From contig JAUIEM010000031.1 in the NCBI GenBank assembly GCA_030428695.1, positions 1 to 38,135 on the forward strand: a stretch of DNA of 38,135 nt. The letters are read 5' to 3'. This document shows, piece after piece, positions 20,569 to 38,135 of the stretch. The notes beneath the pieces were generated by a model that was given only the letters and a program-made list of their open reading frames with translations, did not search any database and had not been told where the DNA came from. Within the stretch, counting starts at the first letter, position 1. The number at the start of each line of letters is the position of its first letter. Source of the DNA: a bacterium. Its GTDB lineage: Bacteria; Planctomycetota; J058; JAJDCP01. Both the position numbers and the translations under genes were made by a program.

Positions 20569-21314
20569 CAGGAGGTCTCCACGGGGAGGCGCAGCGCCTC
20601 CTGGTAGCGGTTCATGATGGTCTGCGGGTCCTGCGTGTCCCCGGTGGGGAAGTCGGTCAGCTCCGCGCCGTCGCGCAGGACGACGACCCGGTCTCCCCAC
20701 ATCGCCACCGACGGCTCGTGGGTGACGACGACGATGGTGCGCTTCTGCTCGGTACACAGCGCGCGCAAGAGCGCGCAGATCGACTGTCCGGAGACCGAGT
20801 CGAGGCTGCCGGTCGGCTCGTCGGCCAGCACGATCGAGGGGTCGGTGATCAGCGCCCGCGCGATCGCGACGCGCTGCTGCTCCCCGCCGGACAGGGCGTC
20901 GGGCCGATGCGCGCGGCGCTCCTTGAGGTCCAGCCGCTCGAGCAGGGCCTCGACCTTCGCGTCGACGTCCGGCACCTCGCAGGCCGGGAGGCGGATGTTG
21001 TCCTCGGCCGTCAGCACCGGGATCAGGTTGAAGGCCTGGAAGATCAGGCCGATGTGCCGCCCACGGAAGCGGGTCAGCCGCGCGTCGGAGAGCGCGGCGA
21101 GGTCTTGACCCGCGACCGCTACGCGGCCTTCGTCCAGGTCGGTCAGGCCCGCCATCGCGTGCAGCAGGGTGCTCTTGCCGGAGCCGGAGGCGCCCATGAT
21201 CACGACGAGCTCGCCGGCCTCGACCGTCAGGTTCACGCGCCGGAGCGCCTCGACGCAGGTGTCGCCGCGGTGGAAGCGCTTGACCGCGGACTCGACCTCA
21301 AGGGGAGGGGGCAT
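20568..21314 (-). CDS. ABC transporter ATP-binding protein, LolD/MacB-like
   Basis: A 248-residue stand-alone ATPase powers the downstream permease. The visible landmarks are Walker A GASGSGKST (41-49), the Q-loop FQAFNLIPVL (Q93), the signature LSGGEQQRVAIARAL (141-155), Walker B IVLADEPTGSLD (161-172) and the H-loop VVTHEP. The Q-loop FQAFNL and ADEPTGSLD are typical of the LolD/MacB/FtsE group. The start at 21314 (MPPPLEVESAVKRFHRGDT) lies 9 bases after the stop of the upstream permease. Its stop overlaps the next permease start, so ATPase and permease are made together. It is a paralogue of the ATPase at 24146-24922, with the same order of motifs. Confidence 0.93.
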   Translation of the reverse strand: MPPPLEVESAVKRFHRGDTCVEALRRVNLTVEAGELVVIMGASGSGKSTLLHAMAGLTDLDEGRVAVAGQDLAALSDARLTRFRGRHIGLIFQAFNLIPVLTAEDNIRLPACEVPDVDAKVEALLERLDLKERRAHRPDALSGGEQQRVAIARALITDPSIVLADEPTGSLDSVSGQSICALLRALCTEQKRTIVVVTHEPSVAMWGDRVVVLRDGAELTDFPTGDTQDPQTIMNRYQEALRLPVETS

Positions 21315-21323
21315 CGGTTGTCC

Positions 21324-24149: not shown

Positions 24150-24922
24150 GCGGGCTGACCCTCGGCTTCGCGCACCCGCAGCTGATCGAGGTAGTGCTGG
24201 CCGAGCTCGCCGACCGTGCCGAAGCGCTCCTTCGGCAGCTCTTCGATCAGCGCGCCGTCGCGCATGATCAGGATGCGATCGGCGAAGTGGGCCACGGCGG
24301 GGTTGTGCGTGACCATCAGCACCGTCGAGCCGTTCTCCCGGCAGGTGGAGGTCAGGAGCGCGCAGAGGCTGTGGCTGTTGCCGGTGTCGAGGTTGCCGGT
24401 CGGCTCGTCCGCGAGGAGCAGGGCCGGGCCGGTCACCAGGGCCCGCGCGATCGCGACCCGCTGTTGCTCCCCGCCGCTCATCGCGTCGGGCAGCCGGCCG
24501 CTGGCATCCTCGATGCCGAGGGCCGCGATCAGCGCCTCCGGCTCGCCCGCCTTCAGGGCGGTGCCGCCGAGCATCGCCGGCAGGACGATGTTCTCCCGGC
24601 CGCTCAGGTCGGGGATCAGGTTCGCTGCCTGGAAGACCAGCCCGATGTGCTGGCGGCGGAAGAGGGTTCGACGCGACTCGCTCAGCCCGAGCATGTCGAG
24701 GCCGTCGATGCTGATCGCGCCGTCGTCGGGGTCGGTCAGGCCGGCGATCAGGTGCAGCAGCGTGCTCTTTCCGCAGCCGCTCGGGCCCATGACGGCGACG
24801 AGCTCGCCGCGGGCGACCGTGAAGGAGACGTCCGTCACCGCCTGCACGGAGCTCCGGCCGTAGGGGAAGGACTTGGTCAGGGCGCTGACGCGCAGAAGGG
24901 GATCGACAGGTTCCGGGCTCAT
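24146..24922 (-). CDS. ABC transporter ATP-binding protein, first gene of the double ABC/FtsX operon
   Basis: The start at 24922 (MSPEPVDPLLRVSALTKSF) is preferred to an in-frame GTG 39 bases upstream because it leaves a normal N-terminus and a GGGAGA-like site upstream. The 258 residues contain Walker A GPSGCGKST (46-54), the Q-loop FQAANLIPDLSG (from F98), the signature MSGGEQQRVAIARAL (148-162), Walker B ALLLADEPTGNLD (167-179) and the H-loop MVTHNP. It is of the LolD/MacB group, and its stop overlaps the permease start at 24149. This is the promoter-proximal gene of the five-gene operon ending with the esterase. The 139 bases between it and the upstream pseudopilin gene carry a hairpin without a T-run, so read-through from the pseudopilin is possible. 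Confidence 0.92.
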   Translation of the reverse strand: MSPEPVDPLLRVSALTKSFPYGRSSVQAVTDVSFTVARGELVAVMGPSGCGKSTLLHLIAGLTDPDDGAISIDGLDMLGLSESRRTLFRRQHIGLVFQAANLIPDLSGRENIVLPAMLGGTALKAGEPEALIAALGIEDASGRLPDAMSGGEQQRVAIARALVTGPALLLADEPTGNLDTGNSHSLCALLTSTCRENGSTVLMVTHNPAVAHFADRILIMRDGALIEELPKERFGTVGELGQHYLDQLRVREAEGQPA

Positions 24923-25016
24923 CGTGGCTCTCGTCTCCCAGGCGTTGGTGGAAGCGCCCACGCAGGCGACGCTCGCGACCCGCTGTCGAAAGGGGCCGCG
25001 AGCGGCGACGCGCGCA

Positions 25017-25061: not shown

Positions 25062-25994
25062 TCAGTTGCGGTTGGTGCGTGTCGCCCAGCTCTGTGCGAG
25101 GTGCGCGTTCTTGCCCGTCGGGTCGAGGATCGCGACCGGGTAGGGCGGGGTCGTGTCGGTCGGCGAGCCCGAGCGGGGCATCGCGATGACCAGCAGGTAG
25201 CGGTCGTAGTGGCCGTCGGTGACGATCGGGCTGATGGGGATCTCCTCGAGGCCGCCGAGCTGGTCGCCGATCAGCGTGCAGTCCTTGCCGATGCCGAAGA
25301 CGAAGAAGCGCTTGGTGTTGAGGGCGTTGTCCCGACCGGTGTCGCTCAGGGTGAAGCCGCTGCGGGGGAAGTCCGTGGTGTCCGCCAGGTCGACGCCGAA
25401 GTCCCGGTACAGGAGCATGCCGCTCTGGGGCGTGGTCGGGCTGACCATCGCGACGTAATCGCCCGCCGCGAGCTCGCGCTCTTCCTTCACGTAGTTCTCG
25501 TGGTTGAAGCTCGCGAACTTGTCGGTGTCGTTGTTGATGTCCATCACCGTGGTCAGGCCGGCCGCGGCGAGCATGTCGACGTCTGCCTGCGAGAGGACCT
25601 CGAGGATCAGGGCCTGACCGTAGCCGTCGGTGCAGTGGTCGTGGATGCCCTTGAAGTTCGCGCCGGTGTCGAGGACGCCGTCGTCGTCCGCGTCGGTCCC
25701 GAAGTACATGATCTCGGCGACGTCACCCGCGTCGAAGACACGGCTGGCGCCGGCGGTCACATCGGTGCTCAGGAGGGAGTCGACCCGGTTCGGGATGCTC
25801 CCGCTGTGCAGGGTGCTGTGGGTCTTGACCGCGGAGGTCGTCCGCTTGATGTTCGCGATGTTGAGCGATTCCTTGGCTTCTTGCTCCGAACCGGACAGGA
25901 GCTGAACCGCAAGGGCGCTGATGAACGCGATGATCGAGACGACCACCAGCAGCTCGATCAATGTAAAGCCTCGTTGGGCGATGGTCTTGTTCAT
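25062..25994 (-). CDS. Major-type pseudopilin/prepilin
   Basis: The ATG at 25994 (MNKTIAQRGFTLIELLVVVS) has AAGAGG upstream. It gives a short nine-residue leader ending in Gly, with FTLIE after the cut and a hydrophobic helix (LLVVVSIIAFISALAVQLL): a classic type III signal cut and methylated by a prepilin peptidase. At 310 residues it is longer than a normal GspG (about 140). The head includes GTDADDDGVLDTGANF, an Asp-rich loop of the calcium-binding kind; GspG pseudopilins bind calcium, though at a different site. No prepilin peptidase gene is in the window. The gene is divergent from the ten-gene secretion operon across 565 bases and probably supplies the main filament subunit, or a large subunit. 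The length and insertion leave open a type IV pilin-like role. Confidence 0.88.
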   Translation of the reverse strand: MNKTIAQRGFTLIELLVVVSIIAFISALAVQLLSGSEQEAKESLNIANIKRTTSAVKTHSTLHSGSIPNRVDSLLSTDVTAGASRVFDAGDVAEIMYFGTDADDDGVLDTGANFKGIHDHCTDGYGQALILEVLSQADVDMLAAAGLTTVMDINNDTDKFASFNHENYVKEERELAAGDYVAMVSPTTPQSGMLLYRDFGVDLADTTDFPRSGFTLSDTGRDNALNTKRFFVFGIGKDCTLIGDQLGGLEEIPISPIVTDGHYDRYLLVIAMPRSGSPTDTTPPYPVAILDPTGKNAHLAQSWATRTNRN

Positions 25995-26441: not shown

Positions 26442-26502
26442 GGTGGTGGTTACTACGTATCCGGTGGCCACTGAGATCCCCCGGGGCAATGCCTGTCCCC
26501 GA

Positions 26503-26518
26503 TGGCACAACACTTGCA
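26503..26518 (+). promoter_or_regulatory. Consensus sigma-54 (-24/-12) promoter of the secretion operon
   Basis: TGGCAC (26503-26508), AACAC, TTGCA (26514-26518) matches the sigma-54 consensus at every conserved position, with GG and GC exactly ten bases apart. The expected start of transcription is near 26528, giving a leader of 20-30 bases to the pseudopilin start. Sigma-54 promoters need an ATP-using enhancer-binding protein, so the operon should be silent until a signal arrives. Pilin genes of several delta-proteobacteria are controlled this way. Confidence 0.75.
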
Positions 26519-26559
26519 AACACCCCGGCCCGCTCTGCAATTGCCCTGGTGTGCACCCC

Positions 26560-27249
26560 GTGTCGAATCTGCCCCGCGAGTTTCGAGCCTTCACGCTCCT
26601 CGAGATCCTGTTGACGGTCGTGATCCTCGCGACCGTGGCGGGGCTGGTCCTGATCAAGCTCGACGGCGTGAGCGCGACCGCCCAGGATCGGCTCTCCCGG
26701 AGTGATCTCGTGCACCTGCGCGCCGCTCTGCTCCGCTTCCACGACGACACGGGCTGGCTGCCGCGGCAGGGCCCCTTCGCCCTGAGCGCGGACGGGGGAG
26801 AGGTGGCCGAGCCCGCCGAAGGCGCGGACTGGTTCCGCTGTCCGGCCAACCTGGTGCAGCTGCTCGAGGAGCCCCGCGACGCGGCGGGAGACCCCGTGTT
26901 CCCCTGGAATCCCGACAGCCGCCGCGGGTGGCGCGGCCCCTATCTGCAGCGTGAGGCCTTCCGCCAGGTCGACCTCTCCTCAGGCCTCGGCGAGGACTCC
27001 TCCGGCTCGTTGTCCGGCGGAGACCTCGTCCCGCGCGTCATCTGCGTGCTGGATGCGCACCTCCGCCCCTGCCCGGCGAGCGGCCTGTTCAGAGCCTACA
27101 CCGCTGGCGGGGAGGCGCTGGCGGAGGCCGGCCGGCCGGTCTTCCTGTTCGCCTCCGACGACACGGCCTGGCTGCAATCGTGCGGGATCGACGGGGAGCT
27201 GAGCGTGGCGGAAGGAGCCGACGACCCCGTCCTGGAGCTCACGCCATGA
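26560..27249 (+). CDS. Pseudopilin (GspG/GspH-like), first gene of the secretion operon
   Basis: The start is not certain. I prefer GTG at 26560 (MSNLPREFRAFTLLEILLT), which gives a ten-residue leader and fits a transcript starting near 26528; GTG at 26551 is the alternative. Neither has a clear ribosome-binding site. The prepilin signal is REFRA|FTLLE with Glu at +5 and a hydrophobic helix (ILLTVVILATVAGLVLI). The residue before the cut is Ala, where Gly is near-universal; peptidases tolerate Ala, but processing may be slower. The head holds GWRGPYL, also found in the next gene, in the position of the PWGNPY-type motif of GspG. The protein would be cut by a prepilin peptidase not encoded here and added to a periplasmic pseudopilus. 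Its stop overlaps the next start (ATGA). Confidence 0.82.
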   Translation: MSNLPREFRAFTLLEILLTVVILATVAGLVLIKLDGVSATAQDRLSRSDLVHLRAALLRFHDDTGWLPRQGPFALSADGGEVAEPAEGADWFRCPANLVQLLEEPRDAAGDPVFPWNPDSRRGWRGPYLQREAFRQVDLSSGLGEDSSGSLSGGDLVPRVICVLDAHLRPCPASGLFRAYTAGGEALAEAGRPVFLFASDDTAWLQSCGIDGELSVAEGADDPVLELTP

Positions 27250-28106
27250 CCGCCCGCCCCGGCTTCACCCTGCTCGAGCTGCTGGTCGTCATCCTGCTGC
27301 TGTCGGCCCTGGCGCTCAGCCTGTCGAACTTCCTCGTCAGCACCGATGACCAGCTCCGCTACGACGACACGAAGAGCCGGCTCGAGGCGATCCGTCAGGC
27401 GACCCTCGGCACCGAGCGCGTCCTCGCCGGGCGGCCGGTGGTGTCGGGCTTCGTCGCCGACATCGGGCGGCTCCCCGACAGCGTCGATGAGCTGCTGGAA
27501 GCGCACGGCCTGCCCGCCTTCGCGTACGACCCCGCCACCGGCCTGGAGGCGGGCTGGCGCGGCCCCTACCTGCCCGGCCTGCCCGAGCTGACGACCGGGG
27601 AGCGGGCCTGGAACGACGGCTGGGGGCGGGCGTTCACCTTCGAGCGCCGGGCAGGGACGGCGGGCGACACCCTCGTCGTCTACAGCCCGGGCTCGCCGTC
27701 GGGCGATTCGACCTACGCCCGCCCGGTCCCCCGCCCGGATCATGCCCTGGTGCTGCCCGAAGACCACGCGCTGCGCGCCAGCACCGTGCGGGTCGCGCTG
27801 GTCAACCGCACGGCGGCGCCGCTCTCCTTCTCGGGTGGCCACGAGCTGGCCTGGGCGACGGCCGTCGACGGGGCGGTCGCCTGGCCCGCCGCCGCGCGCA
27901 GCCAGGCGCTGAGCCTGTCCCTGACGATCCCCGCGGGGGACGAGGCGTCGGTCGCCTTCAGCTTCAGCCCCCCGCTGGTGCTTCCCCAGGGCCTGCGCGC
28001 CTTCGCGATCTTCCCCGCCGGGAGCGCGACGCCGCTGTCTCCCCTCCACGTGCTGCCCGTGGTTCCCCGGACCAGCCTGCAGGATCAGCGCTGCGTGTGG
28101 AGGTGA
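27246..28106 (+). CDS. Pseudopilin with extended head domain
   Basis: The ATG at 27246 overlaps the previous stop. The leader is only six residues (MTARPG|FTLLELLVVILLL), with Gly before the cut and Glu at +5, followed by a standard helix. The first head part holds GWRGPYLPGLPEL and DGWGRAFTFERR, a GspG-like arrangement. About 110 more residues follow that look like a small beta sandwich (STVRVALVNRTAAPLSFSGG, SLSLTIPAGDEASVAFSFSP), ending in QDQRCVWR. The extra beta domain suggests a tip or minor pseudopilin that presents a binding surface. The total of 286 residues is long for GspH or GspI. It is the second gene of the operon, followed by a GGAGG site and the GspL-like gene. Confidence 0.83.
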   Translation: MTARPGFTLLELLVVILLLSALALSLSNFLVSTDDQLRYDDTKSRLEAIRQATLGTERVLAGRPVVSGFVADIGRLPDSVDELLEAHGLPAFAYDPATGLEAGWRGPYLPGLPELTTGERAWNDGWGRAFTFERRAGTAGDTLVVYSPGSPSGDSTYARPVPRPDHALVLPEDHALRASTVRVALVNRTAAPLSFSGGHELAWATAVDGAVAWPAAARSQALSLSLTIPAGDEASVAFSFSPPLVLPQGLRAFAIFPAGSATPLSPLHVLPVVPRTSLQDQRCVWR

Positions 28107-28111
28107 GCGCG

Positions 28112-29443
28112 ATGGCGAAGAGAGACCCGGCGCCGACCCTGGCCATCGCCCTGTCCGGAACTTCCTGCGAGGCGGCCCTGGTCTCACTCGACGGCGGCCC
28201 GACGGTGACGGCCGCGGCGACCGCCGAGACCTCGGTCGACGCCCTGAAGAAGGCCCTGGCGACCCTGGCCCGCAGCGCGTCGCTGCCGGCCGCCGCCGTC
28301 GTCGCCTCGGACCGGGTGCACGGGCTGTGTCTGGTGCTCCCCGAACAGGCGCTGGATGTGCAACGCTGGACGAAGCTCCTGCGCTGGGAGACCGAGCCGC
28401 TGCTGGCGTCCGTCCGGGAAGAGTCCGCGGGGGAGACCGCCGACGGCGAGCTGTGCTTCGGCTGGAGCGAGGGGAGCGGCGACGCCGGAAAGGGGCATCG
28501 CCTGGTCGCGGTCGTCACCCGCACCGACCTCGACGCGCTGACACGCAGCCTGCGCGAGAACGGCCTGCGCCTCGGCGCCCTGTACCCCCTGGTCGGCGCG
28601 GCGGCCGCGGCGTGGGGCGGCGCGGATGGCGCCCTCGCGGTCGCGGACGGGGACACGATCGACCTGACGCTGCTGCGCGAAGGGCGCGTCGTGCTCGCCC
28701 GGCGCACGCCCTGGGAGGGCCCGACCCGGGCGGGGCTGGAGGCGCGCCAGGCCGGCTTCACCGAGCTCGTCTGCGCGGGCAGCCAGCGGGAACGCCTGCT
28801 GCGGGAGTGCGCGCCGGACATCCACAGCGTGCCCGCCCCGGAGAGCCCCGTCGCGCCCGTGCTCCTCGGGCTGGCGCGGCACGAGGCGGGGGCGACCCGC
28901 CTGTCGCTGCCGAAGGTCCGCCTCGCCCGCCCGCGCACGTCCTGGCGCCCCAGGGCGGAGCAGCTGGTCGTCGCGCTCGGGCTGCTGCTGCTCTTGCTGT
29001 ACATCCCCTACCGCATCGACCTCGCCGACCAGCTGCGCGGCGTCGAGCCCGGGGCGCAGGCGAGCCCCGGGCAGGAGCAGAGCCGCCAGGAGCGCGCGCG
29101 GACCGAGCAGCTGCAACGGGAGATCGCGGCGCTGCAGCAGCGGCTCGGGCCCGTGGCCGACCTGCCGCGTCGCGCCCGCCTGGTGCGCCACGTCTTCGTC
29201 GCCCTGTCCGAGGCCCTGCGCAGCTCCAGGGTGCAGCTCGCCTCGGTGGAGGAGACCGACGACGCCGTGCGCATCGAGGGCGAGGGGGCGCGGGCCAGCG
29301 CCGTCCACCAGTTCGCCGCCGAGCTGCAGCGCCGCCTCGAGGGCTGGGAGCGGCGCGTGTCCACCCCCGCCCTCGAGCGCGACACCGAGCGCGGGATCTT
29401 CGCCTTCTCGCTGGAAATCAGGGCCGCGGGAGGGGCGCGGTGA
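28112..29443 (+). CDS. gspL: GspL-like inner-membrane platform protein (PilM+PilN fusion)
   Basis: The ATG at 28112 is preferred to GTG at 28097 because GGAGG lies eight bases before it. Of 443 residues, 1-280 have an actin/ASKHA-like look (PTLAIALSGTSCEAALVSLD, GADGALAVADGDTIDLTLLR), as in the cytoplasmic domain of GspL or PilM. A single membrane helix follows (about 282-300, VVALGLLLLLLYIPYRI). A coiled coil (ERARTEQLQREIAALQQRLG) and a ferredoxin-like periplasmic domain (SSRVQLASVEETDDAVRIEG) complete the PilN half. GspL links the ATPase GspE to GspM and the platform GspF; all of these partners are downstream. The stop overlaps the GspM-like start (GTGA). Confidence 0.82.
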   Translation: MAKRDPAPTLAIALSGTSCEAALVSLDGGPTVTAAATAETSVDALKKALATLARSASLPAAAVVASDRVHGLCLVLPEQALDVQRWTKLLRWETEPLLASVREESAGETADGELCFGWSEGSGDAGKGHRLVAVVTRTDLDALTRSLRENGLRLGALYPLVGAAAAAWGGADGALAVADGDTIDLTLLREGRVVLARRTPWEGPTRAGLEARQAGFTELVCAGSQRERLLRECAPDIHSVPAPESPVAPVLLGLARHEAGATRLSLPKVRLARPRTSWRPRAEQLVVALGLLLLLLYIPYRIDLADQLRGVEPGAQASPGQEQSRQERARTEQLQREIAALQQRLGPVADLPRRARLVRHVFVALSEALRSSRVQLASVEETDDAVRIEGEGARASAVHQFAAELQRRLEGWERRVSTPALERDTERGIFAFSLEIRAAGGAR

Positions 29444-29955
29444 ATCTCCCTCGGGCCGCCCAGCTCGGCATCATCTTTGGTCTGGCCATCGCGTCGGTCG
29501 TGCTCTTCGATGCCCTCCCCACGCGGCGCCGCATCGCGGCCCTGGCCTTCGAGGCGGAGGCGCTGCAGATGCGCGGAGCGGAGACGCCCGACCGTCCGTC
29601 GGGGCCGTCGACGGCGGCGCTCGAGGCCGAGCTGCGGGCTCTGCGGGACGCCCTCGAGGCGGCGCCCGGGGACGGCGAAGACCTCGGCGCGGTGTGCGCC
29701 CTGGCGGAACGGATGGGGCTGGAGATCGGGGGCAGCCGCCTCGTCGATGCGCCGACCTCGGCGCGTTGCAAGGAGCTGCAGGAGGCGGGTCTGACCCTGC
29801 ACGCGATGGAGCTCGAAGGGGCCTACCGCGCGTGGCTGGGCTTCGTCGACGGGCTGGCGCGCGCCGGCGCGCCCGCGGTGATCGTTCAATTCCAGGTGGA
29901 GCGCTCGACGGATGCCCGGGTCAAGGTTGCGATCGTCCTCGTCTCCCGCTCCTGA
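29440..29955 (+). CDS. GspM/PilO-like inner-membrane protein
   Basis: The GTG at 29440 overlaps the previous stop. The 171 residues show one N-terminal membrane helix (LGIIFGLAIASVVLFDALP), a short coiled coil (ALEAELRALRDALEAAPGDG) and a ferredoxin-like domain (LTLHAMELEGAYRAWLGFVD, VIVQFQVERSTDARVKVAIV). This is the layout of GspM and PilO, which pair with GspL or PilN. The position directly after the GspL gene supports the call; the sequence is too diverged to choose between the T2SS and T4P versions. About 120 bases follow before the PilT-like gene's assigned start. Confidence 0.75.
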   Translation: MNLPRAAQLGIIFGLAIASVVLFDALPTRRRIAALAFEAEALQMRGAETPDRPSGPSTAALEAELRALRDALEAAPGDGEDLGAVCALAERMGLEIGGSRLVDAPTSARCKELQEAGLTLHAMELEGAYRAWLGFVDGLARAGAPAVIVQFQVERSTDARVKVAIVLVSRS

Positions 29956-30075
29956 GGGCTGTATTCGGGCGACGAGCGACGCAGCCAGCGGCGACGAGGG
30001 CCAGCGAAAACGAGGATTTGTTCCCTGACAGCGCCTGAGGAAGACGTCCTGCCGGTCTGGTTCTCCCGGCTCCTG

Positions 30076-31086
30076 GTGCAGACCAGCGAGCGGGACGCGA
30101 CCGACCTGCATCTGGCGGAGGGAGAGCGCCCGCTGCTGCGCATCCGCACCGAGCTCCGTCCCCTCGACGCCGAGCCCATCGGCCGCGCCGCGCTGCGGAA
30201 GCTGGTGGAGACCCTCGTCAGCCCCGCGCAGCTCGACCAGCTCGAGGGGCGGAAGGCCGCCGACCTCGCGCTGAGCCACACCGGGCACCGCTTCCGCATC
30301 CACATCTTCTTCGCGACCGAGCGCCTGACCATCGCGATCCGGCGCCTGGAGCCCCGCATCCGCGGCTACGAGCAGCTCGGATTGCCCGAGCCGGTCGCCC
30401 GGCTGACCGAGGTGGAGGACGGGCTGCTCCTGGTCGTCGGGCCGACCGGGAGCGGCAAGACCACCACCCTCGCGGCGCTGCTCGACTCCATCAACCGCAC
30501 GATGGCGCGGCACATCCTGACGATCGAGGAGCCGATCGAGTACGTCATCGAGCCGCACCGGAGCCTCATCCGCCAGCGCGAGCTGTACAAGGATGTCCAC
30601 AGCTACGACCAGGCCGTCCGCGAGGCGCTGCGCGCCGACCCCGACGTGATCCTCGTCGGCGAGATGCGCGACCGCGAGACGATGCGCGCGGTGCTCGCCG
30701 CGGCAGAGACCGGGCATCTGGTCTTCTCCACCCTGCACTCCAGCGACGCCGTCGTCGCCATCGAGCGCTTCATCGGCGCCTTCGACCGCGGGGAGCAGGA
30801 CGGCGTGCGGGTCCAGCTCTCCCTGGTCCTGCGCGCGGTCGTCGCCCAGCGGCTGCTGCGCGGGGTCGACCGCCTGTGGCCCCTGGTCGAGGTGCTGCGC
30901 GTGACGCCCGCCGCGGCGAACCTGATCCGCGCGGGCAAGCCGAAGCAGATCCGCCAGGTGATGGAGTCGTCCGCCGCCCTCGGCATGCAGACCTTCGAGC
31001 AGGCGCGCAAGATCGGCATCGCGCAGGGCCGCTTCCGCGTCCCCCACGCCTTTCCCCCGGCGCGCGCCTGGGAAGGGAGGAGCTGA
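30076..31086 (+). CDS. PilT-like secretion/retraction ATPase
   Basis: Secretion ATPase of the PilT side of the family. The segments are: ATDLHLAEGERPLLRIRTEL (residues 8-27, the usual GASDLHL opening), Walker A GPTGSGKT (122-129), the Asp-box region TIEEPIEYVIEP, Walker B DVILVGEMRDRET (190-202), the His box TGHLVFSTLHS, and a C-terminus with NLIRAGKPKQIRQVMESSAA, LGMQTFEQA. The last part matches the PilT AIRNLIREGK and GMQT-x-(D/E)QA pattern, and the tetracysteine of GspE/PilB is absent. It therefore probably retracts or disassembles filaments. GTG at 30076 is the only standard start near the opening, but it leaves just ten residues before DLHL. The frame is open back to 29956, and a GAGGAAG at 30037 hints at a non-standard start upstream (CTG 30049), so the N-terminus may be longer. 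Confidence 0.87.
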   Translation: MQTSERDATDLHLAEGERPLLRIRTELRPLDAEPIGRAALRKLVETLVSPAQLDQLEGRKAADLALSHTGHRFRIHIFFATERLTIAIRRLEPRIRGYEQLGLPEPVARLTEVEDGLLLVVGPTGSGKTTTLAALLDSINRTMARHILTIEEPIEYVIEPHRSLIRQRELYKDVHSYDQAVREALRADPDVILVGEMRDRETMRAVLAAAETGHLVFSTLHSSDAVVAIERFIGAFDRGEQDGVRVQLSLVLRAVVAQRLLRGVDRLWPLVEVLRVTPAAANLIRAGKPKQIRQVMESSAALGMQTFEQARKIGIAQGRFRVPHAFPPARAWEGRS

Positions 31087-31089
31087 GGG

Positions 31090-32694
31090 ATGCAGCCGAA
31101 GGTGCTGGTGGAAGCGGCCGTCCAGCGCGGCCTGGTCGATCGCGAGACGGCGCGCGCGGCGGCGGCGGAAGCGGCCCGCCTGCGCCGCCCGCTGCTCGAG
31201 CACATCGCGCTGCGGCTGCGGCTGCCGGCGCGCGCCTTCGCCCACGCCCTCGCCGAGCTGCGCGGGCTGGCCTTCGTCGATGCGGAGGCCCTGCGCCCCG
31301 ACCCCGAGCTGCTCCAGCGGCTGCCCCGCATCCTCGTCCAGCGCAAGGGGATCCTCCCGCTCCGGGAGAGCGGCGAGGGCGTCGTGCTCGCCACCGCCGA
31401 CCCCGATGACATCACCACCCTCGACTCCGCCCGCCGCGCCCTGGGCCGGGCGGTCGTCGCCGCGGTCGCCGAGCCGCGGGCCCTCGACCTCGCCATCCGC
31501 CGCGCCCTGTCCGACACGGCCGCGGCGCAGCCCATCGATGGCGTCGGCCTGCTCGACCAGGTGATGTCCGAGGGCTACGCGTCCGCCGCTTCCGACATCC
31601 ACCTCGAGCCCGACGCGGACGGCTACCGGATCCGCATCCGCATCGACGGCCGCCTGCGCGACTTCTCCGCGGCGATCTCGACCGGTCTCGGCCAGGCGAC
31701 GATCTCGCGCATCAAGGTGCTGTCCGGGCTCGACATCGCGGAGAAGCGCGAGCCCCAGGACGGCGGCTTCCGCTATCCCCTGCGCGTCCTCGCCGACATC
31801 ACCCTCGACGTCCGCGTCGCGACCGCGCCGACCCGCTTCGGCGAGCGCGCGACCCTGCGCCTGCTCGGCGTCGCCGAGGTCCGCGAGCTCGACGCGATCG
31901 GCCTGCCGGCGGAGGACCTCGCGCGCGTCGAGACCTTCCTCGAGCGGCCGCGGGGCTTGTGCCTGCTGGCGGGGCCGACCGGCTGCGGCAAGACGACGAC
32001 CCTGTACGCCGCCCTGCGCCGGCTGGTCTCCACGCACCGCAACGTGCTGACGGTCGAGGATCCGATCGAGAGCATCGTCGTCGGCACCTCGCAGCTGCAG
32101 GTCGATGCCGCCGGCAAGCTGACCTTCGCCAAGGCGCTGCGCTCGCTGCTGCGGCACGACCCCGACGTGCTGATGGTCGGCGAGATCCGCGACGCCGAGA
32201 CCGCGGAGATCGCGCTGAAGGCGGCGCTGACCGGGCACGCGGTGCTGTCCTCGCTGCACACCAGCTCGACCGTGGGGGCGGTCACCCGCCTGCGCGACCT
32301 CGGCATGCAGAGCTACCTGGTCGCGGCCACCCTCGAGGTCGTGATCGCGCAGCGCCTGGTGCGCCGGCTGTGCGAGCGCTGCCGGGAGGCCGTCCCGGTC
32401 GACGCGCTCCTCGCCGGCACGCTGGAGCTCGACGCCGACGACGAGGCGCGCGTGTTCCGGGCCCGGGGCTGCGCCTGCTGTCTCGGCACGGGCTACCGGG
32501 GGCGGATGGGCATCTTCGAGCTGCTCCTCAGCGACCGCCCCTTCCAGGAGGCGGTGGCCCGGGGCGTCGCGGAGCCCGGGCTGCTCGACATCGCGCAGAA
32601 GAACGGGCTGCGGACCCTGCGCGAGCGGGCGATCGAGGCAGTGCTCGCCGGCGGCACCAGCGCGGAAGAGGCCTACACGGCCGCGGTGCTGTAG
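31090..32694 (+). CDS. gspE: GspE/PilB-like assembly ATPase
   Basis: A 534-residue hexameric ATPase drives pseudopilus growth. Residues 1-140 are the GspE/PilB N-terminal domain (LVDRETARAAAAEAARLRRP). The catalytic part has ASDIHLEPDADGYRIRIRID (167-186), Walker A GPTGCGKT (295-302), the Asp box VEDPIES, Walker B DVLMVGEIRDAET (359-371) and the His box TGHAVLSSLHTSS. The zinc tetracysteine is C428-x2-C431-x29-C461-x2-C464, exactly the GspE/PilB spacing and absent from the PilT-like gene just upstream. It works with GspL and GspF in the inner membrane. The start at 31090 lies four bases after the PilT-like stop and has GGGAGGAG upstream. Confidence 0.94.
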   Translation: MQPKVLVEAAVQRGLVDRETARAAAAEAARLRRPLLEHIALRLRLPARAFAHALAELRGLAFVDAEALRPDPELLQRLPRILVQRKGILPLRESGEGVVLATADPDDITTLDSARRALGRAVVAAVAEPRALDLAIRRALSDTAAAQPIDGVGLLDQVMSEGYASAASDIHLEPDADGYRIRIRIDGRLRDFSAAISTGLGQATISRIKVLSGLDIAEKREPQDGGFRYPLRVLADITLDVRVATAPTRFGERATLRLLGVAEVRELDAIGLPAEDLARVETFLERPRGLCLLAGPTGCGKTTTLYAALRRLVSTHRNVLTVEDPIESIVVGTSQLQVDAAGKLTFAKALRSLLRHDPDVLMVGEIRDAETAEIALKAALTGHAVLSSLHTSSTVGAVTRLRDLGMQSYLVAATLEVVIAQRLVRRLCERCREAVPVDALLAGTLELDADDEARVFRARGCACCLGTGYRGRMGIFELLLSDRPFQEAVARGVAEPGLLDIAQKNGLRTLRERAIEAVLAGGTSAEEAYTAAVL

Positions 32695-32709: not shown

Positions 32710-33921
32710 ATGCACTTCACCTACACCGCGCTGGACGAGTCGGGCGCCGAGCGCTCGGGGCGCCTCGAGGGGGCGACGCCGGAAGAGGTGGCCTCGGCGA
32801 TCCGCGGGCGGGGCCTGTTCCCCATCGAGATCAACGAGGTGGCGGCGACCCGGATGCCCCCGACCGGACGGCGCGGCTTCTATCTGCCCTTCGTCCGGCT
32901 GCGCGACCTCGCCTTCTTCTGCCGCCAGCTCGGGCTGATGCTGCGGGCCGGCCTGGGCTTGCACAGCTCCCTGCAGCTCCTGGCGCGCGGGGAGATCCAC
33001 CCGCGCCTCGCGCGCGCCTCGGAGCGGATGGCCGCGACGGTGATGCGCGGCACCTCCCTGTCCGAGGCGATCGCCGCGCAGGGCCGTCTGTTCCCGAGCA
33101 TGGCCGCCAGCCTGGTCGCCTCCGCCGAGGCGACGGGCGAGCTCGACGGCGCCTTCGCCAGCCTCGCCGCGCACTTCGACCGCCAGGCCGAGCTGCGGGC
33201 CCAGGTGATGTCCGCCCTGCTCTATCCGCTGGTCGTGCTGCTCGTCTCGATCGGGGTGATCGTGTTCCTGGTGGTGAAGGTCCTGCCGCGCTTCGCGGAG
33301 TTCCTGAGCAGCCGCGGGGCGGCGCTGCCCGCCGCGACCCGCTTCCTCCTCGAGCTCGGCGACTTCTTCCGCAGCCAGGGGGTGTTCCTCTTGCTGGGGG
33401 CCGCGAGCGTGGCCGCGCTGCTCTGGCTGGCCTGGGGACGGCCCCGCGGCCGGTCCGCCATCCAGCGCGTCCTGCTCTCCGTCCCCGTGGTCGCGGGGAT
33501 CCTGCGCACCGGCCTGCTGACGCGCACCTTCGACTGTCTGGCGACCCTGCTGAAGAGCGGGCTGCCGCTCGAGAGCTCGATGCGCGCCGCCGCCATGGCC
33601 TCGGGCAACGCGGTGTTCCGGACCGAGCTCGAGCGCGTGGCGGGACGGGTCCTCGAGGGCGGCGCGCTGGCGCCGTCGCTCGCCGATTCGCGGGTGTTTC
33701 CGAAGATCGCCGTGCAGGTGGTCGGGGTCGGCGAGGAGACCGGCGCCCTCGACGAGGTCATGCGCGAGCTCGCCCGGTTCTACGACGCCGTGCTGACCCG
33801 CCGGGTGCGCGTGCTGTCGACGCTGTTCGAGCCGGCGCTGCTGCTGTTCGTCGGCGGCATCGTCGCCTACGTCTACTACTCGTTCTTTCAGGCCGTCTTC
33901 TACCTGTCGGCCTACCATTGA
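32710..33921 (+). CDS. gspF: GspF/PilC-like platform protein
   Basis: The ATG at 32710 follows GAGGGAGGGACGGCGG. The 403 residues show the family's two repeated T2SF domains: LRDLAFFCRQLGLMLRAGLG then SAEATGELDGAFASLAAHFD, and LLTRTFDCLATLLKSGLPLE then VGVGEETGALDEVMRELARF. The G-E-x-T/S-G-x-L-D motif appears in both halves. Membrane segments follow each (VMSALLYPLVVLLVSIGVIV and LFEPALLLFVGGIVAYVYYS), with a third near FLLLGAASVAALLWLAW. The opening MHFTYTALDESGAERSGRL is the usual start of GspF. It forms the inner-membrane base on which the ATPases act. Confidence 0.95.
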   Translation: MHFTYTALDESGAERSGRLEGATPEEVASAIRGRGLFPIEINEVAATRMPPTGRRGFYLPFVRLRDLAFFCRQLGLMLRAGLGLHSSLQLLARGEIHPRLARASERMAATVMRGTSLSEAIAAQGRLFPSMAASLVASAEATGELDGAFASLAAHFDRQAELRAQVMSALLYPLVVLLVSIGVIVFLVVKVLPRFAEFLSSRGAALPAATRFLLELGDFFRSQGVFLLLGAASVAALLWLAWGRPRGRSAIQRVLLSVPVVAGILRTGLLTRTFDCLATLLKSGLPLESSMRAAAMASGNAVFRTELERVAGRVLEGGALAPSLADSRVFPKIAVQVVGVGEETGALDEVMRELARFYDAVLTRRVRVLSTLFEPALLLFVGGIVAYVYYSFFQAVFYLSAYH

Positions 33922-33932
33922 GAGGAAACCCC

Positions 33933-34313
33933 ATGCGCGCAGCACTCCTCGTGCTCCTCTGCTCGTCGGCCGCGGCGCTGGCCCAGGAAGCGGCGGACAG
34001 CCTCGATGTCTCGCAGCTTCCCGACCCGTTCCACGCCGAGCTCCAGCCCGACTCGCTGGCCGTGCCCGCCGTCACGCGCCCCGTGCCGAGCCCGACGCTG
34101 CCGCGCATCGAGCTGCTGGTCTACCTCGAGGTCGAGGGCAAGCCCCCGCTGGCGATCATCGACGTCGACGGCCAGCGCCAGGTGGTCGAGCCCGGCGACC
34201 GGGTCTGGGTCCAACGTCGAGGGGAGCCCTTCGAGCTCTTCGTCGAGGAGCTCGCCGAGGGACGGCTGGTCTTCTCCGCGCCCGGTCTGTTGCAACCACT
34301 GGAGATCCGCTGA
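33933..34313 (+). CDS. Small GspC/PilP-like periplasmic protein
   Basis: The 126-residue protein starts at 33933 with AGAGG upstream and carries a signal peptide (MRAALLVLLCSSAAALAQ). After a Pro-rich linker, residues 66-126 (RIELLVYLEVEGKPPLAIID, VDGQRQVVEPGDRVWVQ, FELFVEELAEGRLVFSAP) form a small beta domain like the HR domain of GspC or the core of PilP. Both bind the secretin N0 domain. A normal GspC has an N-terminal membrane anchor; here there is only a cleavable-looking signal and no lipobox, so the protein is probably free in the periplasm or held by others. Its stop overlaps the secretin start (TGATG), as in pilP-pilQ. Assignment rests on position and domain shape. Confidence 0.72.
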   Translation: MRAALLVLLCSSAAALAQEAADSLDVSQLPDPFHAELQPDSLAVPAVTRPVPSPTLPRIELLVYLEVEGKPPLAIIDVDGQRQVVEPGDRVWVQRRGEPFELFVEELAEGRLVFSAPGLLQPLEIR

Positions 34314-36052
34314 TGCGCCGCCTCCTCCTTCCTCTCGCGCTCCTGCTGTGGCTGGCGACGCTCGCCCCGGCGGACGACGTCATCCGCCGGCTCGAGGCCG
34401 ACCGGGCCACGGTCCACGAGGTGCTGCGCCTGTTCAGCGACCTGACCGGGCTGATCGTCGTCGCCAGCCCCCAGGCCGGGCAGACCGAGGTCACCCTGTC
34501 GCTGCGCAATGTCGATGCCGAGCTCGGGCTCGAGCTGTTGTGCAAGGCGGCCGGCCTGTGGCACCTGCGCACGCCCGCCGGGGTCCATCGCGTGTTGACC
34601 GCGCCCGAGTACCAGCGCGAGGTGGTGGTCGAGACCTCGGACACGATCCAGGTGTTCACGCTGCTGTACCCCCGCGCCGACGCGGTCGCGACGACCGTGC
34701 GCAACCTCTACGGCTCCCGCGTGCGGCTGTCGTACGGGCCGGAGGAGAACCTCTACGGGGTGTTCAACAGCAGCGGGGACAACAGCCTGCAGACGGGCAG
34801 CGGCGCGAACTTCCGCTCCTCGTCCTCGGGCAGCAGCTTCGGGCGCGGCGATGAGGAGTCGGGAGCCGAGCTGGCGGAGCGGGCGACGGCGGAGCAGCTC
34901 GCGGCGATGTCGGCGCGCGACGAGGCGCTGAGCGCCGAGGAGATCAGCGAGGCGCTCGGCAACGTGCTGCCGATCTACGTCACGATCGATCGCACCAACA
35001 ACCTGATCATCGTGCGCTGCAGCGAGCCCAAGGTGATGGCGAGCATCGAGCGGCTGATCATCGAGCTCGACCGGCCGACGCCCCAGGTCCTGCTGGAGGT
35101 CAAGATCCTCGAGCTCAGCCTCGACGACAACATGAGCTCGGTCTTCGACCTCGACCTGATCGATGGCACCACGCAGGCCGGTCCCCCGACCTCGCAGCCG
35201 CGCAACCCCCTGCTCACCTCCTCCGGGACCGGCTACGAGACCGCTCTGGGGCTCGGCAACTTCCCGCTGCAGGGCGGCACACTCATCTACCAGTTCATGG
35301 ACGAGCACATCCGCGCCCGCATGCAGCTGCTCAAGGGAACCGGCCGCATCCGCTCCCTGGCGACTCCCCTGCTGCTGTGCGCGAACGAGCAGCCGTCGCG
35401 CCTGTTCGTCGGCGAGGAGCGGCCGCTGGTGAGGAACTTCGACGTGCTGACCACGACGACCGAGGGGGTGACCACCGACCGCATCGTGCCCGAGGTCGAC
35501 CTGCGGGACATCGGCAACACCCTGCGCATCTTCCCGAGCATCAACGCCGACCGCACCGTCGCCCTGCGCATCATCCAGGACGTGTCCTCCGTCAACATCG
35601 GCGGGGCCAGCCTGCCGATCCCGACCTCGGGCGGGGATGTCCAGGAGGTGCGGGTCGACACGGTGACCACCGCCAACATAGAGGGCACCGTGATCGGCCG
35701 CGACGGGCTGACCCTGGCCGTGGGCGGGCTGATCCGCAAGGAGGTCTCGCAGGTCGAGGAGGGCCTCCCGCTGCTGATGGACATCCCGGTGATCGGCTTC
35801 CTCTTCCGCGAGACCGAGGTCCGCGAGGTGCAGCGCGAGCTGGTGCTGTTGATCACCCCGCGCATCATCACGACCCCCGCCGAGGGGGAGGCGACCACGC
35901 GGGCGCGCCTCCAGGCGCTGTCCCTGCATCCCTACACCTGGCGCGGGGAGGACGGTGTCGCCCCCTTCGACCGCGCCGACCTCGACGAGAGCCCCGACCT
36001 GCTCCCCCTGCTCGAAGAGTTCCTCCACCCGATCCCGGAGCCGCTGCCGTGA
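34313..36052 (+). CDS. gspD: Secretin (GspD/PilQ-like) outer-membrane channel
   Basis: The 579 residues start with a signal peptide (MRRLLLPLALLLWLATLAPA). An STN/N0-like domain follows (VHEVLRLFSDLTGLIVVASP, VTLSLRNVDAELGLELLCKA), then N1-type segments (VIRR and VFTLLYPRADAVATTVRNLY; VTIDRTNNLIIVRCSEPKVM), with a Ser/Gly-rich insert between (SGANFRSSSSGSSFGRGDE). The secretin core runs from about PQVLLEVKILELSLDD to DIGNTLRIFPSI, EGLPLLMDIPVIGFLFRE and RELVLLITPRII, all family hallmarks. It forms the outer-membrane gate. A C-terminal extension of about 55 residues after the core may be the pilotin-binding region; the next gene encodes a lipoprotein. The stop overlaps that gene's GTG. Confidence 0.94.
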   Translation: MRRLLLPLALLLWLATLAPADDVIRRLEADRATVHEVLRLFSDLTGLIVVASPQAGQTEVTLSLRNVDAELGLELLCKAAGLWHLRTPAGVHRVLTAPEYQREVVVETSDTIQVFTLLYPRADAVATTVRNLYGSRVRLSYGPEENLYGVFNSSGDNSLQTGSGANFRSSSSGSSFGRGDEESGAELAERATAEQLAAMSARDEALSAEEISEALGNVLPIYVTIDRTNNLIIVRCSEPKVMASIERLIIELDRPTPQVLLEVKILELSLDDNMSSVFDLDLIDGTTQAGPPTSQPRNPLLTSSGTGYETALGLGNFPLQGGTLIYQFMDEHIRARMQLLKGTGRIRSLATPLLLCANEQPSRLFVGEERPLVRNFDVLTTTTEGVTTDRIVPEVDLRDIGNTLRIFPSINADRTVALRIIQDVSSVNIGGASLPIPTSGGDVQEVRVDTVTTANIEGTVIGRDGLTLAVGGLIRKEVSQVEEGLPLLMDIPVIGFLFRETEVREVQRELVLLITPRIITTPAEGEATTRARLQALSLHPYTWRGEDGVAPFDRADLDESPDLLPLLEEFLHPIPEPLP

Positions 36053-37275
36053 ACCTCCCCCGCGTCCTCGTCACCCTCGGCCTCTCCTGCCTGGTCGGCT
36101 GCACCGCCGTCACCCGGGAGCCGACCGCGTTCGCGCGGCCTCCGCTGCTCCTGCCCGCCCCGTCGACGGTCGAGGCCTTCCAGCTGCGGCTGCTGCACCA
36201 CCACCAGGCCGGACGCAGGGAGTGCGTGCGGGCGCTGATCCGGGACTTCCCCGAGCCCGCCTTCGCCCTCTTCCTCGCCTCCACCGACCCCGGCACCCGG
36301 GCGGCCCTCGCCGAGCTGTGGCCGGACGGGCGGGAGCGGGGGGCGCTGCAGGCGAGCCTCGCGGCCGCGTCCCGCCAGCCCGAGCGGCATCGCCTGGCCC
36401 GCACCCGGCTCGAGGCGGGGGAGCTCGAGGAGGCGCTCGCCGTGTTCTTCGCGGTCGGCGATCCCGTCTTCGCCAACGAGGCCCGCCTGCGCGCCGGCTC
36501 GCCGCTGACGGAGGCGGCCCTGCGGCTGCAGCGCGCGCGGCTGCTCAGCCAGGCGGCGGAGGCGGGGCGGGTGCCCCTGCTCGAGGCCCTGCGCGGCGCG
36601 GTGGAGGCCCGGGCCATCGGCGCCCTGGCCACCTGCGTCACGTCACTCACCTCCTTCGCCGTCGCCGCGGACAGCCCGCAGGACTACCTCGCGGCCGCCC
36701 GCCTGGCCCTGCAGTGCGACGAGACGCTGCTCGCGATGCAGGGCGCGTACCGGGCCGAGGGCGTCGAGGGAAGCGAGCCGGCGCGCGTGCTGATCCAGTG
36801 CCAGCTGGTCGGCGGAAACCCCGCCGCCGCGCTGGCGAGCGCCGCCGCGGCGGCGGAGAGCGCGCGGTCGGACGCCGAGCGCGCCGCCTTCCTGGCCCTC
36901 GAGGCCGACGCCCTGTTCCGGCTCGGGCACCACGAGGCCGCGGGCAGGATCTACCGCCAGGCCGCCCAGTGCTGCGCCGCCGCCGGGGACCCCGCGGGCG
37001 AGCTGCGCGCGGGCCTCAACGCGGCGATGGCGGCGCTGCGCCTCGGGGAGATCGCGACCGCCCAGGCGGAGCTGGAGGAGCTCGAAGGTGCGCCGTCGCT
37101 GCCCCAGGAGCTGCACCTGTACGCGCAGGTCCTGCGCGCGCTGGCCGGCTGGACCCCCGAGGAGGGCGCCGCCTCGGCCCGCGCGGTCGCGTCCGCCGTC
37201 GAGCTGGCCGCCTCCCTCGGCCTGTACGCCTTCGTCGAGCGCTGGGAGCACCTCGAGGGCCGGCTGCGGCGGTGA
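36049..37275 (+). CDS. TPR-like outer-membrane lipoprotein, last gene of the secretion operon
   Basis: The GTG at 36049 overlaps the secretin stop (GTGA). The signal ends in a perfect lipobox, L15-V16-G17-C18 (MNLPRVLVTLGLSCLVGC). The remaining 390 residues are helical pairs rich in Ala, Leu and Glu (LARTRLEAGELEEALAVFFA, ARVLIQCQLVGGNPAAALAS, ALEADALFRLGHHEAAGRIY, RAGLNAAMAALRLGEIATAQ), which read as degenerate TPRs. Outer-membrane lipoproteins of TPR type (PilF/PilW) serve as pilotins for secretins of type IV pili, so a pilotin-like role is a good guess from position and architecture; the sequence is not closely like any I know. It lacks Sel1 or peptidase motifs. After its stop there are 200 bases before the next gene. 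Confidence 0.78.
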   Translation: MNLPRVLVTLGLSCLVGCTAVTREPTAFARPPLLLPAPSTVEAFQLRLLHHHQAGRRECVRALIRDFPEPAFALFLASTDPGTRAALAELWPDGRERGALQASLAAASRQPERHRLARTRLEAGELEEALAVFFAVGDPVFANEARLRAGSPLTEAALRLQRARLLSQAAEAGRVPLLEALRGAVEARAIGALATCVTSLTSFAVAADSPQDYLAAARLALQCDETLLAMQGAYRAEGVEGSEPARVLIQCQLVGGNPAAALASAAAAAESARSDAERAAFLALEADALFRLGHHEAAGRIYRQAAQCCAAAGDPAGELRAGLNAAMAALRLGEIATAQAELEELEGAPSLPQELHLYAQVLRALAGWTPEEGAASARAVASAVELAASLGLYAFVERWEHLEGRLRR

Positions 37276-37475: not shown

Positions 37476-38135
37476 ATGCGCGCCGCCCCTCTGTTCCTGC
37501 TCTGCACCTCGCTCTGCTTCGCCCAGAACGTCACCGTCGGGGACTTCGGAGGTGCGGGAAACAGCACCAACGGCTCCTTCGTCGCCGGGGTCTGGACCCC
37601 GACCGCGGACTCCAACCTCGACTTCGCCGACCTGCAGCTCGCCCTCGACACTGCCGACGTGACGATCACGACCCAGGGCGCGGGCACGCTGGTCATCGAG
37701 CCGGTGTTCAGCTTCCTGCTCGCGACGCCGCGCAGCCTGACCCTGATCGGGGACAGCGTCGAGGTCGGAGGCGTCAACGATGCCGGCGGCTCGCTGGCCC
37801 TGACCCTGGACATCCAATCCGCGGGCGGCGTGACGAGCAGCGCGGCGGGGATCGACCTCGCCGGCGGCTCCCTCCTCTCCAGCGGCACGACCTTCACCCT
37901 CGGGTCGGGATCCCTGCAAACGCGCGGGGGCGCATTCGTGCTCGACCACACCGGCAGCGTCGTGATCGGGGCGGGCGGGATCGACACCGACGGCGGGGAC
38001 TTCAGCTCCGCGGGGCCGGGGAGCTTCCTCGCGCAGGACAACGGGATCGACACCGACGGCGGGGCGGCGCTCATCGACCACGACGGCGATGTCGAGCTGG
38101 TCGACGGCGCCCTGGAAACCACCGGCGGCACGGCG
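37476..38135 (+). CDS. Secreted repetitive beta-helix/FHA-like protein, N-terminal part
   Basis: The ATG at 37476 has AGGAGA five bases upstream. The signal peptide is MRAAPLFLLCTSLCFAQ, and the frame is open to the right edge (220 codons). The mature part is Gly/Asp/Ser/Thr-rich with short strands separated by Gly turns (TITTQGAGTLVIEPVFSFLL, GIDLAGGSLLSSGTTFTLGS, GGIDTDGGDFSSAGPGSFLA, NGIDTDGGAALIDHDGDVEL). This is a stacked right-handed beta-helix pattern, as in filamentous haemagglutinin-like adhesins and planctomycete giant surface proteins. GGIDTDGG/NGIDTDGG recurs with a 22-residue period. It is probably a large surface or secreted protein, and its place just after the secretion operon makes it a candidate client. 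The end and any anchor or autotransporter domain are outside the window. Confidence 0.8.
   Translation, partial: MRAAPLFLLCTSLCFAQNVTVGDFGGAGNSTNGSFVAGVWTPTADSNLDFADLQLALDTADVTITTQGAGTLVIEPVFSFLLATPRSLTLIGDSVEVGGVNDAGGSLALTLDIQSAGGVTSSAAGIDLAGGSLLSSGTTFTLGSGSLQTRGGAFVLDHTGSVVIGAGGIDTDGGDFSSAGPGSFLAQDNGIDTDGGAALIDHDGDVELVDGALETTGGTA
37976..38064 (+). repeat. Direct repeat of 23 bases with 66-base period in the surface-protein gene
   Basis: Positions 37976-37998 and 38042-38064 are identical over 23 bases and lie exactly 66 bases (22 codons) apart. They encode GIDTDGG in the same frame. Neighbouring segments show looser versions (GIDLAGG), so this is a recently duplicated coil of a repetitive beta-helix; more copies may follow beyond the edge. 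Confidence 0.7.

Follow-up and report, generated by a model that had tools for sequence, protein, structure and literature searches.

The DNA analysed here, a planctomycete contig of 38,135 nucleotides (JAUIEM010000031.1 of assembly GCA_030428695.1; "the window" means this whole stretch), carries an operon with the gene set of a type IV filament (TFF) system apart from a prepilin peptidase. Prepilin peptidases are often shared between type IV filament systems. Within the operon, the gene for a PilT-family ATPase lies directly before that for a GspE/PilB-family ATPase. The initial annotation had remarked on two such ATPases side by side in a secretion operon, and this was borne out, as the first passes the PilT family model and the order recurs in many genomes. 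We consider it fairly probable that the operon encodes a retractile filament machine that forms a clade of its own and is neither a type II secretion system (T2SS) nor a type IVa pilus (T4aP). The gene set and order, their conservation, the clade structure, the co-divergence of PilT with its neighbors and the intact ATPase motifs are read directly from the sequences. The genes are as follows.

25065..25994, minus strand: large prepilin of 'pilA' type, with a class III signal peptide and Glu5; motif RGFTLIELLVVV
26443..27249, plus strand: prepilin of 'pilG' type, GspG-like at the N-terminus only, with syntenic homologues; start uncertain
27246..28106, plus strand: prepilin of 'pilH' type, with TIGR02532 and N_methyl over cut-off, and homologues; ATG inferred at 27246, overlapping the pilG stop
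28112..29443, plus strand: fused PilM-PilN (PilMN) of GspL-like architecture, from an AlphaFold2 model, Foldseek and homologues; ATG inferred at 28112
29440..29955, plus strand: PilO/GspM-like protein, with syntenic homologues
30025..31086, plus strand: PilT-family ATPase, with TIGR01420 over cut-off and motifs kept; start uncertain (CTG at 30025 or GTG at 30076)
31090..32694, plus strand: GspE/PilB-family extension ATPase, with MshEN domain, T2SSE domain and tetracysteine; in one clade with those of other operons
32710..33921, plus strand: GspF/PilC-family platform protein (TIGR02120, 279.6 bits against a cut-off of 424; clade support 98)
33933..34313, plus strand: PilP/GspC-HR-like periplasmic protein, with homologues in the same position; ATG inferred at 33933
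34313..36052, plus strand: secretin, with Pfam Secretin over cut-off; clade support 99
36049..37275, plus strand: TPR-like lipoprotein overlapping the secretin stop, with an LVGC lipobox seen by eye and a weak TPR_8 match (E 0.053)

Two plus-strand prepilin genes are thus followed by PilMN-O-PilT-GspE-GspF-P-secretin and then by the lipoprotein gene; the third prepilin of the operon set (25065-25994) is divergent, on the minus strand. A PilM-N-O-P-Q-like order had been proposed for this operon. The fused PilMN, the O-like and P-like proteins and the secretin are all there, but PilT, GspE and GspF sit between O and P. Moreover, a fused M-N protein is the layout of GspL, so the order fits GspL-M-C-D equally well.

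The two adjacent ATPases

The open frame of the first ATPase spans 29956-31086. The protein scores 343.4 bits against the NCBIfam model TIGR01420 (pilT_fam), above the cut-off of 319.1, and PilT or PilU accounts for all nine of its top-scoring solved structures. Walker A, Asp box, Walker B and His box are intact. The gene had been placed correctly, but its start, given as 30076, is probably further upstream, because the N-terminus of PilT is coded in frame before that position. An in-frame CTG at 30025, eight bases 3' of GAGGA, would be the likelier start. At the C-terminus, where the AIRNLIRE region is expected, the protein carries AAANLIRAGKPKQI, with AAANLIRA at the position of AIRNLIRE. 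The PilT C-terminal pattern previously ascribed to it therefore holds as a resemblance to AIRNLIRE and not as identity, while the general PilT C-terminus is conserved in the clade of operon PilTs. A passage of PMC4471445 describes AIRNLIRE as critical to retraction in known PilTs.

It had also been observed that a tetracysteine is absent from the first ATPase and present in exact form in the second. Both observations agree with the sequence, the motif of the second being C428-x2-C431-x29-C461-x2-C464. Less secure was the use of this motif as a mark of GspE. The pattern C-x2-C-x(20-45)-C-x2-C is present in 31 of 37 PilBs labelled as belonging to type IV pili (T4P), as well as in 9/9 T2SS GspEs and 37/41 GspEs of the operon type, with spacings of 23-34 across the PilB and GspE sets compared. 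Because it is frequent in PilB, we do not take the zinc motif to prove a GspE. The NCBIfam scores of the second ATPase are near-equal for GspE (432.9 bits, cut-off 630) and PilB (428.1 bits, cut-off 676), and it lies under the cut-off of each NCBIfam model matched.

Recurrence of the operon and co-inheritance of PilT

Profile searches were made with the window's PilT and its best full-length relative, P0004, then with a PilMN profile and then with a secretin profile. In the PilT/P0004 scan, the best five loci among at least 80 matches come from metagenome-assembled genomes (MAGs) of Pseudomonadota (L001-L005). L002-L005 hold the entire operon in the order of the window, and L001, a 3.5-kb contig, shows MN-O-PilT-GspE. 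The operon including PilT occurs in Planctomycetota, in Gammaproteobacteria, in one genome of the Nitrospirota phylum and in one genome (L325) of the phylum of Kiritimatiellae.

The PilMN profile matched just two proteins in the protein database, probably because an MshEN-like insert filled the candidate list; this insert gives many weak hits, and hits confined to profile positions ~118-200 were ignored. The insert, which resembles the N-terminal segment of MshEN, lies in the PilM-like part of PilMN in L002-L005 (about alignment columns 120-225) and in L319:7443-9221. It gives weak NF053729 matches below cut-off in L003 and L319, and the window's PilMN is without it. The cleaner secretin profile was used for genome counts. 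At E ≤ 1e-70, it matched 24 of 294 genomes in the phylum of a Planctomycetota MAG, 14 of 194 in the phylum of a Kiritimatiellae genome and 1 of 148 in the phylum of a Nitrospira genome. It also matched 7 of 274 in the class of L003, which is probably Gammaproteobacteria, because the Ectothiorhodospiraceae genome of L004 is in the same class. At E ≤ 1e-40, one of 15 further genomes of mixed phyla matched (region L335). L335 was rejected as a member since its GspE falls outside the operon clade, and L157 and L158 were rejected as not of the operon type.

Of the 7995 candidates scored in the protein database, 513 match the secretin profile at E ≤ 1e-40. Among the 120 secretin matches listed, twelve are named as Planctomycetota and one each as Verrucomicrobia, Brocadiae, Manganitrophus and Pseudomonadales; their products, where named, are often GspD or PulD. 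The window's closest relative among the matches listed is on a contig of 198,300 bases (PilT 55%, secretin 57% identity). Twelve source contigs besides that of the window are apparently common to the secretin and PilT match lists, so PilT and secretin are probably on one contig in these cases too. Scans of viral contigs found no relative of the operon.

We regarded a locus as informative if the stretch before GspE was readable, which gave 40 loci. PilT lies directly before GspE in 22 of these (the window, L001-L005, L141-L143, L146, L149, L150, L152-L154, L276, L304, L308, L311, L313, L319 and L325) and just after the secretin, within ~0.7 kb, in nine (L338-L346, all in the phylum of the Kiritimatiellae genome). 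Together, 31/40 have PilT at one of these two places. Loci that are cut by contig ends or have an incomplete junction were left uncounted (L140, which is the other half of L276, L144, L145, L147, L151, L301, L305-L307, L309, L314, L316, L317, L320-L324, L336 and L337), and L156 was dropped as the same contig as L001.

In a careful PilT tree of 75 rows, 21 of the PilTs that precede GspE, together with an orphan PilT from L007, form one group with bootstrap 100 and SH-aLRT 100. (The cut PilT of L311 was left out of the PilT trees, three near-copies were dropped from the careful tree, and L298 in one PilT tree duplicates L150.) Outside the operon-PilT clade lie the PilT-family rows of T4P loci and the tandem PilT-family genes of carrier genomes, which we take to be PilT and PilU. 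Distances in the PilT tree track those of GspE (r 0.84) and GspF (r 0.88) over 27 of the 31 PilT-bearing loci (L001, L143, L146 and L311 were left out), and 0 of 2000 permutations were as high. Without the group in which PilT follows the secretin (leaving 18 loci), the values are 0.85 and 0.89; the corresponding correlation between GspE and GspF is 0.97. These results support PilT as a conserved, co-inherited part of the machine and not a stray neighbor.

Some relatives differ in arrangement. By eye, the orphan PilT (L007:9980-11086) lies among unrelated genes at the end of a planctomycete contig. In L317/L362 (G417), a secretin, a P-like protein and a GspF are of the operon type, and there is no GspE or PilT hit within 20 kb. 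The predicted proteins P0002, P0003 and P0005 (580-657 residues) each join two PilT-type ATPase units in tandem, and the N-terminus of the first unit is short.

Phylogeny and components of the machine

We compared GspE, GspF and the secretin to reference sequences in single-gene, unrooted trees. T2SS references were E. coli K-12 and nine carrier-genome loci that pass the T2SS cut-off, and T4P rows came from several phyla; GspE fragments under 300 residues, including that of L001, were dropped. The operon GspEs form one clade (18 rows, SH-aLRT 100), as do the GspFs (16 rows, 98), both apart from T2SS, T4P and MSHA-like rows, and the secretins form one clade (15 rows, 99) apart from T2SS and MSHA-like rows. 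An extended GspE tree, which left out eight loci (six long-branched before, plus L237 and L250 beside those), again has one operon clade (41 rows, 99). An extended secretin tree was given 13 later loci, with any reference secretin above 520 residues trimmed to its final 520. In this tree, 28 operon secretins lie on one side of a branch with support of 99; on the other side are five MSHA-like rows, the T2SS rows and eight PilQ rows (over the T4P cut-off, from Pseudomonadota carriers), the PilQ rows forming a separate clade (100).

Thus, both ATPases, GspF and the secretin fall into clades of their own, and neither a grouping with T2SS-accessory ATPases nor a nesting in ordinary T4P was seen. 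The suggestion that the machine stands between T2SS and T4P survives in part: it is separate from both in the trees, but a phylogenetic intermediate is not supported, given unrooted trees and modest basal support. In an ATPase tree in which the PilT and GspE sides root each other, the operon GspEs (17 rows, 94) and the operon PilTs are placed near the base of their respective sides. If this branching holds, the machine would be old; it is important to consider that the supports are modest and that long branches may mislead.

Only PilT and the generic prepilin N-terminal domain pass NCBIfam cut-offs in the window, in L003, and among secretins and other proteins of L319, L325, L326, L330 and L339. 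The PilMN protein was modelled with AlphaFold2 from five sequences (mean pLDDT 57). Its predicted layout is an actin-like domain at about residues 10-275, a helix of transmembrane length, a coiled coil and a ferredoxin-like end. For the actin-like domain, Foldseek ranks Pseudomonas PilM best (5eoy, 1.9e-11), with GspL (4pht) at 3.3e-7. VIA-align scores are 13.9 for FtsA, 13.7 for PilM and 11.0 for EpsL, and because FtsA is placed beside PilM, the fold alone leaves PilM versus GspL unsettled. Neither the O-like nor the P-like protein of the window has a family match in NCBIfam and Pfam scans. Homologues of the former gave one match to T2SSM (E 0.005) and one to PilO (E 0.036), both below cut-off.

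All three prepilins of the window have Glu5. The 'pilA'-type protein aligns with the prepilin encoded first in operons of Gammaproteobacteria and planctomycetes (predicted model, pLDDT 37), and the 'pilG'-type protein scores 29 bits against TIGR01710 (cut-off 88.85). In L002-L005 the prepilins are also large (234-447 residues). No H/I/J/K prepilin set was recognized by NCBIfam models over cut-off in the operons of the window and L003.

A domain scan of the window's secretin found no match to AMIN, DUF3438 or TraK_C. The secretins L003:14503-16761 and L005:14655-16934 have a C-terminal match to DUF3438, as in conjugation-system proteins, and the latter also to TraK_C. The TPR-like lipoprotein encoded after the window's secretin is a possible pilotin. 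By eye, lipoprotein-like open reading frames also lie 3' of the secretin in L002, L004 and L152, and other genes do so in L003, L153 and L155.

Two known systems with a secretin were rejected as identities for the operon. The MSHA pilus is likewise a filament whose secretin, ATPase and platform are encoded in a single locus, but the MSHA-like loci of carrier genomes (L220, L221 and L229, 10-11 kb each, in which no PilT was found) belong to other clades. The window's secretin scores 110.5 bits against MshL (cut-off 250.2), and three MshL-like secretins of carriers score 231, 245 and 277. The Amuc_1098 family includes the secretin of a verrucomicrobial filament system, but the scores of the window and its relatives (32-62 bits) lie well below its cut-off of 750.

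The flanks of the operon were inspected by eye. Upstream and divergent from it are two MacB-like permease genes, each paired with an ABC ATPase gene (17803-24961, minus strand). Downstream, the start of a probable secreted protein with a signal peptide and short IDTDGG-like repeats runs off the end of the window (37477-38135, plus strand).

Proposed function and alternative explanations

If the operon encodes a retractile filament machine, homology suggests that the GspE/PilB-like ATPase would polymerize the three large prepilins at the GspF-like platform. The PilMN fusion and the O-like and P-like proteins would connect this platform to the outer-membrane secretin, through which, again by homology, the filament would pass. 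The operon's PilT would depolymerize the filament, as homologous PilTs suggest, so that it cycles out and back.

We would favor a retractile pilus or uptake fiber over classical secretion. One reason is that, among the eight Pseudomonadota carriers searched (G001-G005, G419, G547 and G460), all except G460 already have a canonical GspE over the T2SS cut-off. Another is that the prepilins are large, and that no shared cargo gene was seen in the operon flanks, as read in part of the loci. All eight carriers also have a PilQ over the T4P cut-off and PilT-family genes elsewhere, so the operon is an extra machine in these carriers. A more specific version is that of a machine of an undescribed type, ancient and present in several phyla, which would act as a two-stroke pump, in which GspE would extend a short fiber of large prepilins into the secretin and the return stroke by PilT would move protein out or polymer in. 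We regard this version as rather doubtful.

Several observations weigh against a retractile machine of its own clade. In nine of the 40 informative loci, PilT is at neither place (L139, L148, L155, L302, L303, L310, L312, L315 and L318), although the sequence readable after the secretin is short in L139 (~0.8 kb), L310 (~1.3 kb) and L315 (~0.1 kb). In three of these genomes, all PilT matches at E ≤ 1e-90 fall outside the operon clade (five in G045, nine in G026 and three in G460). The machine can therefore do without PilT. The GspEs of these three genomes nest among those of PilT-bearing systems, which fits loss of PilT. Across the operon PilTs, AIRNLIRE varies in its letters. The PilTs located after the secretin, which are sister to those before GspE in a quick tree (99), form their own group in the careful tree and are not sister to them there; these PilTs may have been gained separately. 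Neither the T2SS nor the T4P references group into a single clade in the trees of GspE and GspF and, since the trees are unrooted as well, the machine may have descended from within T4P. In the mutually rooted tree, the operon PilTs do not form a single clade, as 2 rows branch off ahead of the remaining 13 (support 83), the basal place of the operon clade rests on supports of 81-96, and 12 rows without the Walker A pattern used dropped out. Finally, the genomes are largely MAGs.

The absence of PilT from both usual places in nine loci that keep the rest of the operon is also what might be expected if PilT were an assembly helper or regulator that either tunes the GspE-like ATPase or joins it in mixed hexamers, with no active retraction of the filament. 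The long branch of the window's PilT (1.31 in the quick tree, 1.18 in the careful one) and the departure of AAANLIRA from AIRNLIRE point the same way, and mixed hexamers are discussed in a passage of PMC6711533. However, the PilTs of the clade have kept both their ATPase motifs and the general PilT C-terminus, and we consider such a role unlikely.

A divergent T2SS that kept or regained PilT, and that secretes protein by an actively retracted pseudopilus, would account for much of the operon's composition. Like a T2SS, the operon has a secretin, GspF, a GspE-family ATPase with MshEN-type N-domain and tetracysteine, L-like (fused cytoplasmic-periplasmic, in the GspL layout), M-like and C-like proteins, and prepilins with GspG-like N-termini. 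The best NCBIfam scores are to GspD, GspF and GspE, in L003 as in the window, and databases often name the relatives' secretins GspD or PulD. However, these scores miss the equivalog cut-offs by wide margins in the window (GspD 156 of 351 bits, GspE 433 of 630, GspF 280 of 424), as they do in L003 and the other loci scanned, and the trees keep the operon apart from T2SS rows. Unlike a T2SS, the operon has its own PilT, all three window prepilins have Glu5, and no H/I/J/K set was identified in it. Foldseek ranks PilM above GspL, and a canonical T2SS GspE is already present in seven of the eight Pseudomonadota carriers. This explanation therefore seems improbable to us.

An ordinary T4aP whose genes were gathered into one locus by happenstance would explain the PilT family membership over cut-off, the PilM-like domain, the PilMNOPQ-like order and the combination of two ATPases, platform and secretin, and the unrooted trees leave room for an origin within T4P. 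This is nevertheless very unlikely. In the operon, PilM and PilN are fused and all genes are in one locus, with PilT, GspE and GspF between O and P. Its GspE, GspF, secretin and PilT are apart from T4P rows, including PilQ. The window's secretin lacks an AMIN match and scores 110 of 284 bits for PilQ, with PilB at 428 of 676. The separate PilQ and PilT-family genes of all eight Pseudomonadota carriers also argue against a T4aP. Lastly, although genomes of the planctomycete phylum are rich in PilT (4 to 13 matches at E ≤ 1e-90 in each of 13 searched), we rejected the idea that a PilT landed by chance beside a secretion operon in a single organism as scarcely credible, given the same position in 22 loci, the single clade with full support, and the co-divergence with GspE and GspF.

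Our preferred interpretation, a retractile filament machine of its own clade, can be placed against earlier work on the superfamily. By the inference of Denise et al. (2019, PMC6668835), PilB and PilT go back to an early duplication, PilT was often lost, e.g., in T2SS, and T2SS originated within T4P. These authors keep 884 systems as 'generic', and operons of the present type may be among these. A search of titles and abstract beginnings in part of the literature found no description of PilT in such an operon. An excerpt of Beeby (PMC6711533) notes that further independent T2SS-like systems would be helpful to find.

On sequence evidence, we would class the operon in the type IV filament superfamily, as a new variant that is neither T2SS nor T4aP. 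Some Planctomycetota genes labelled GspD, GspE and GspF may then be parts of another machine. That a T2SS-like machine has a dedicated PilT, and relatives of it have none, would make the role of retraction in a secretin machine testable.

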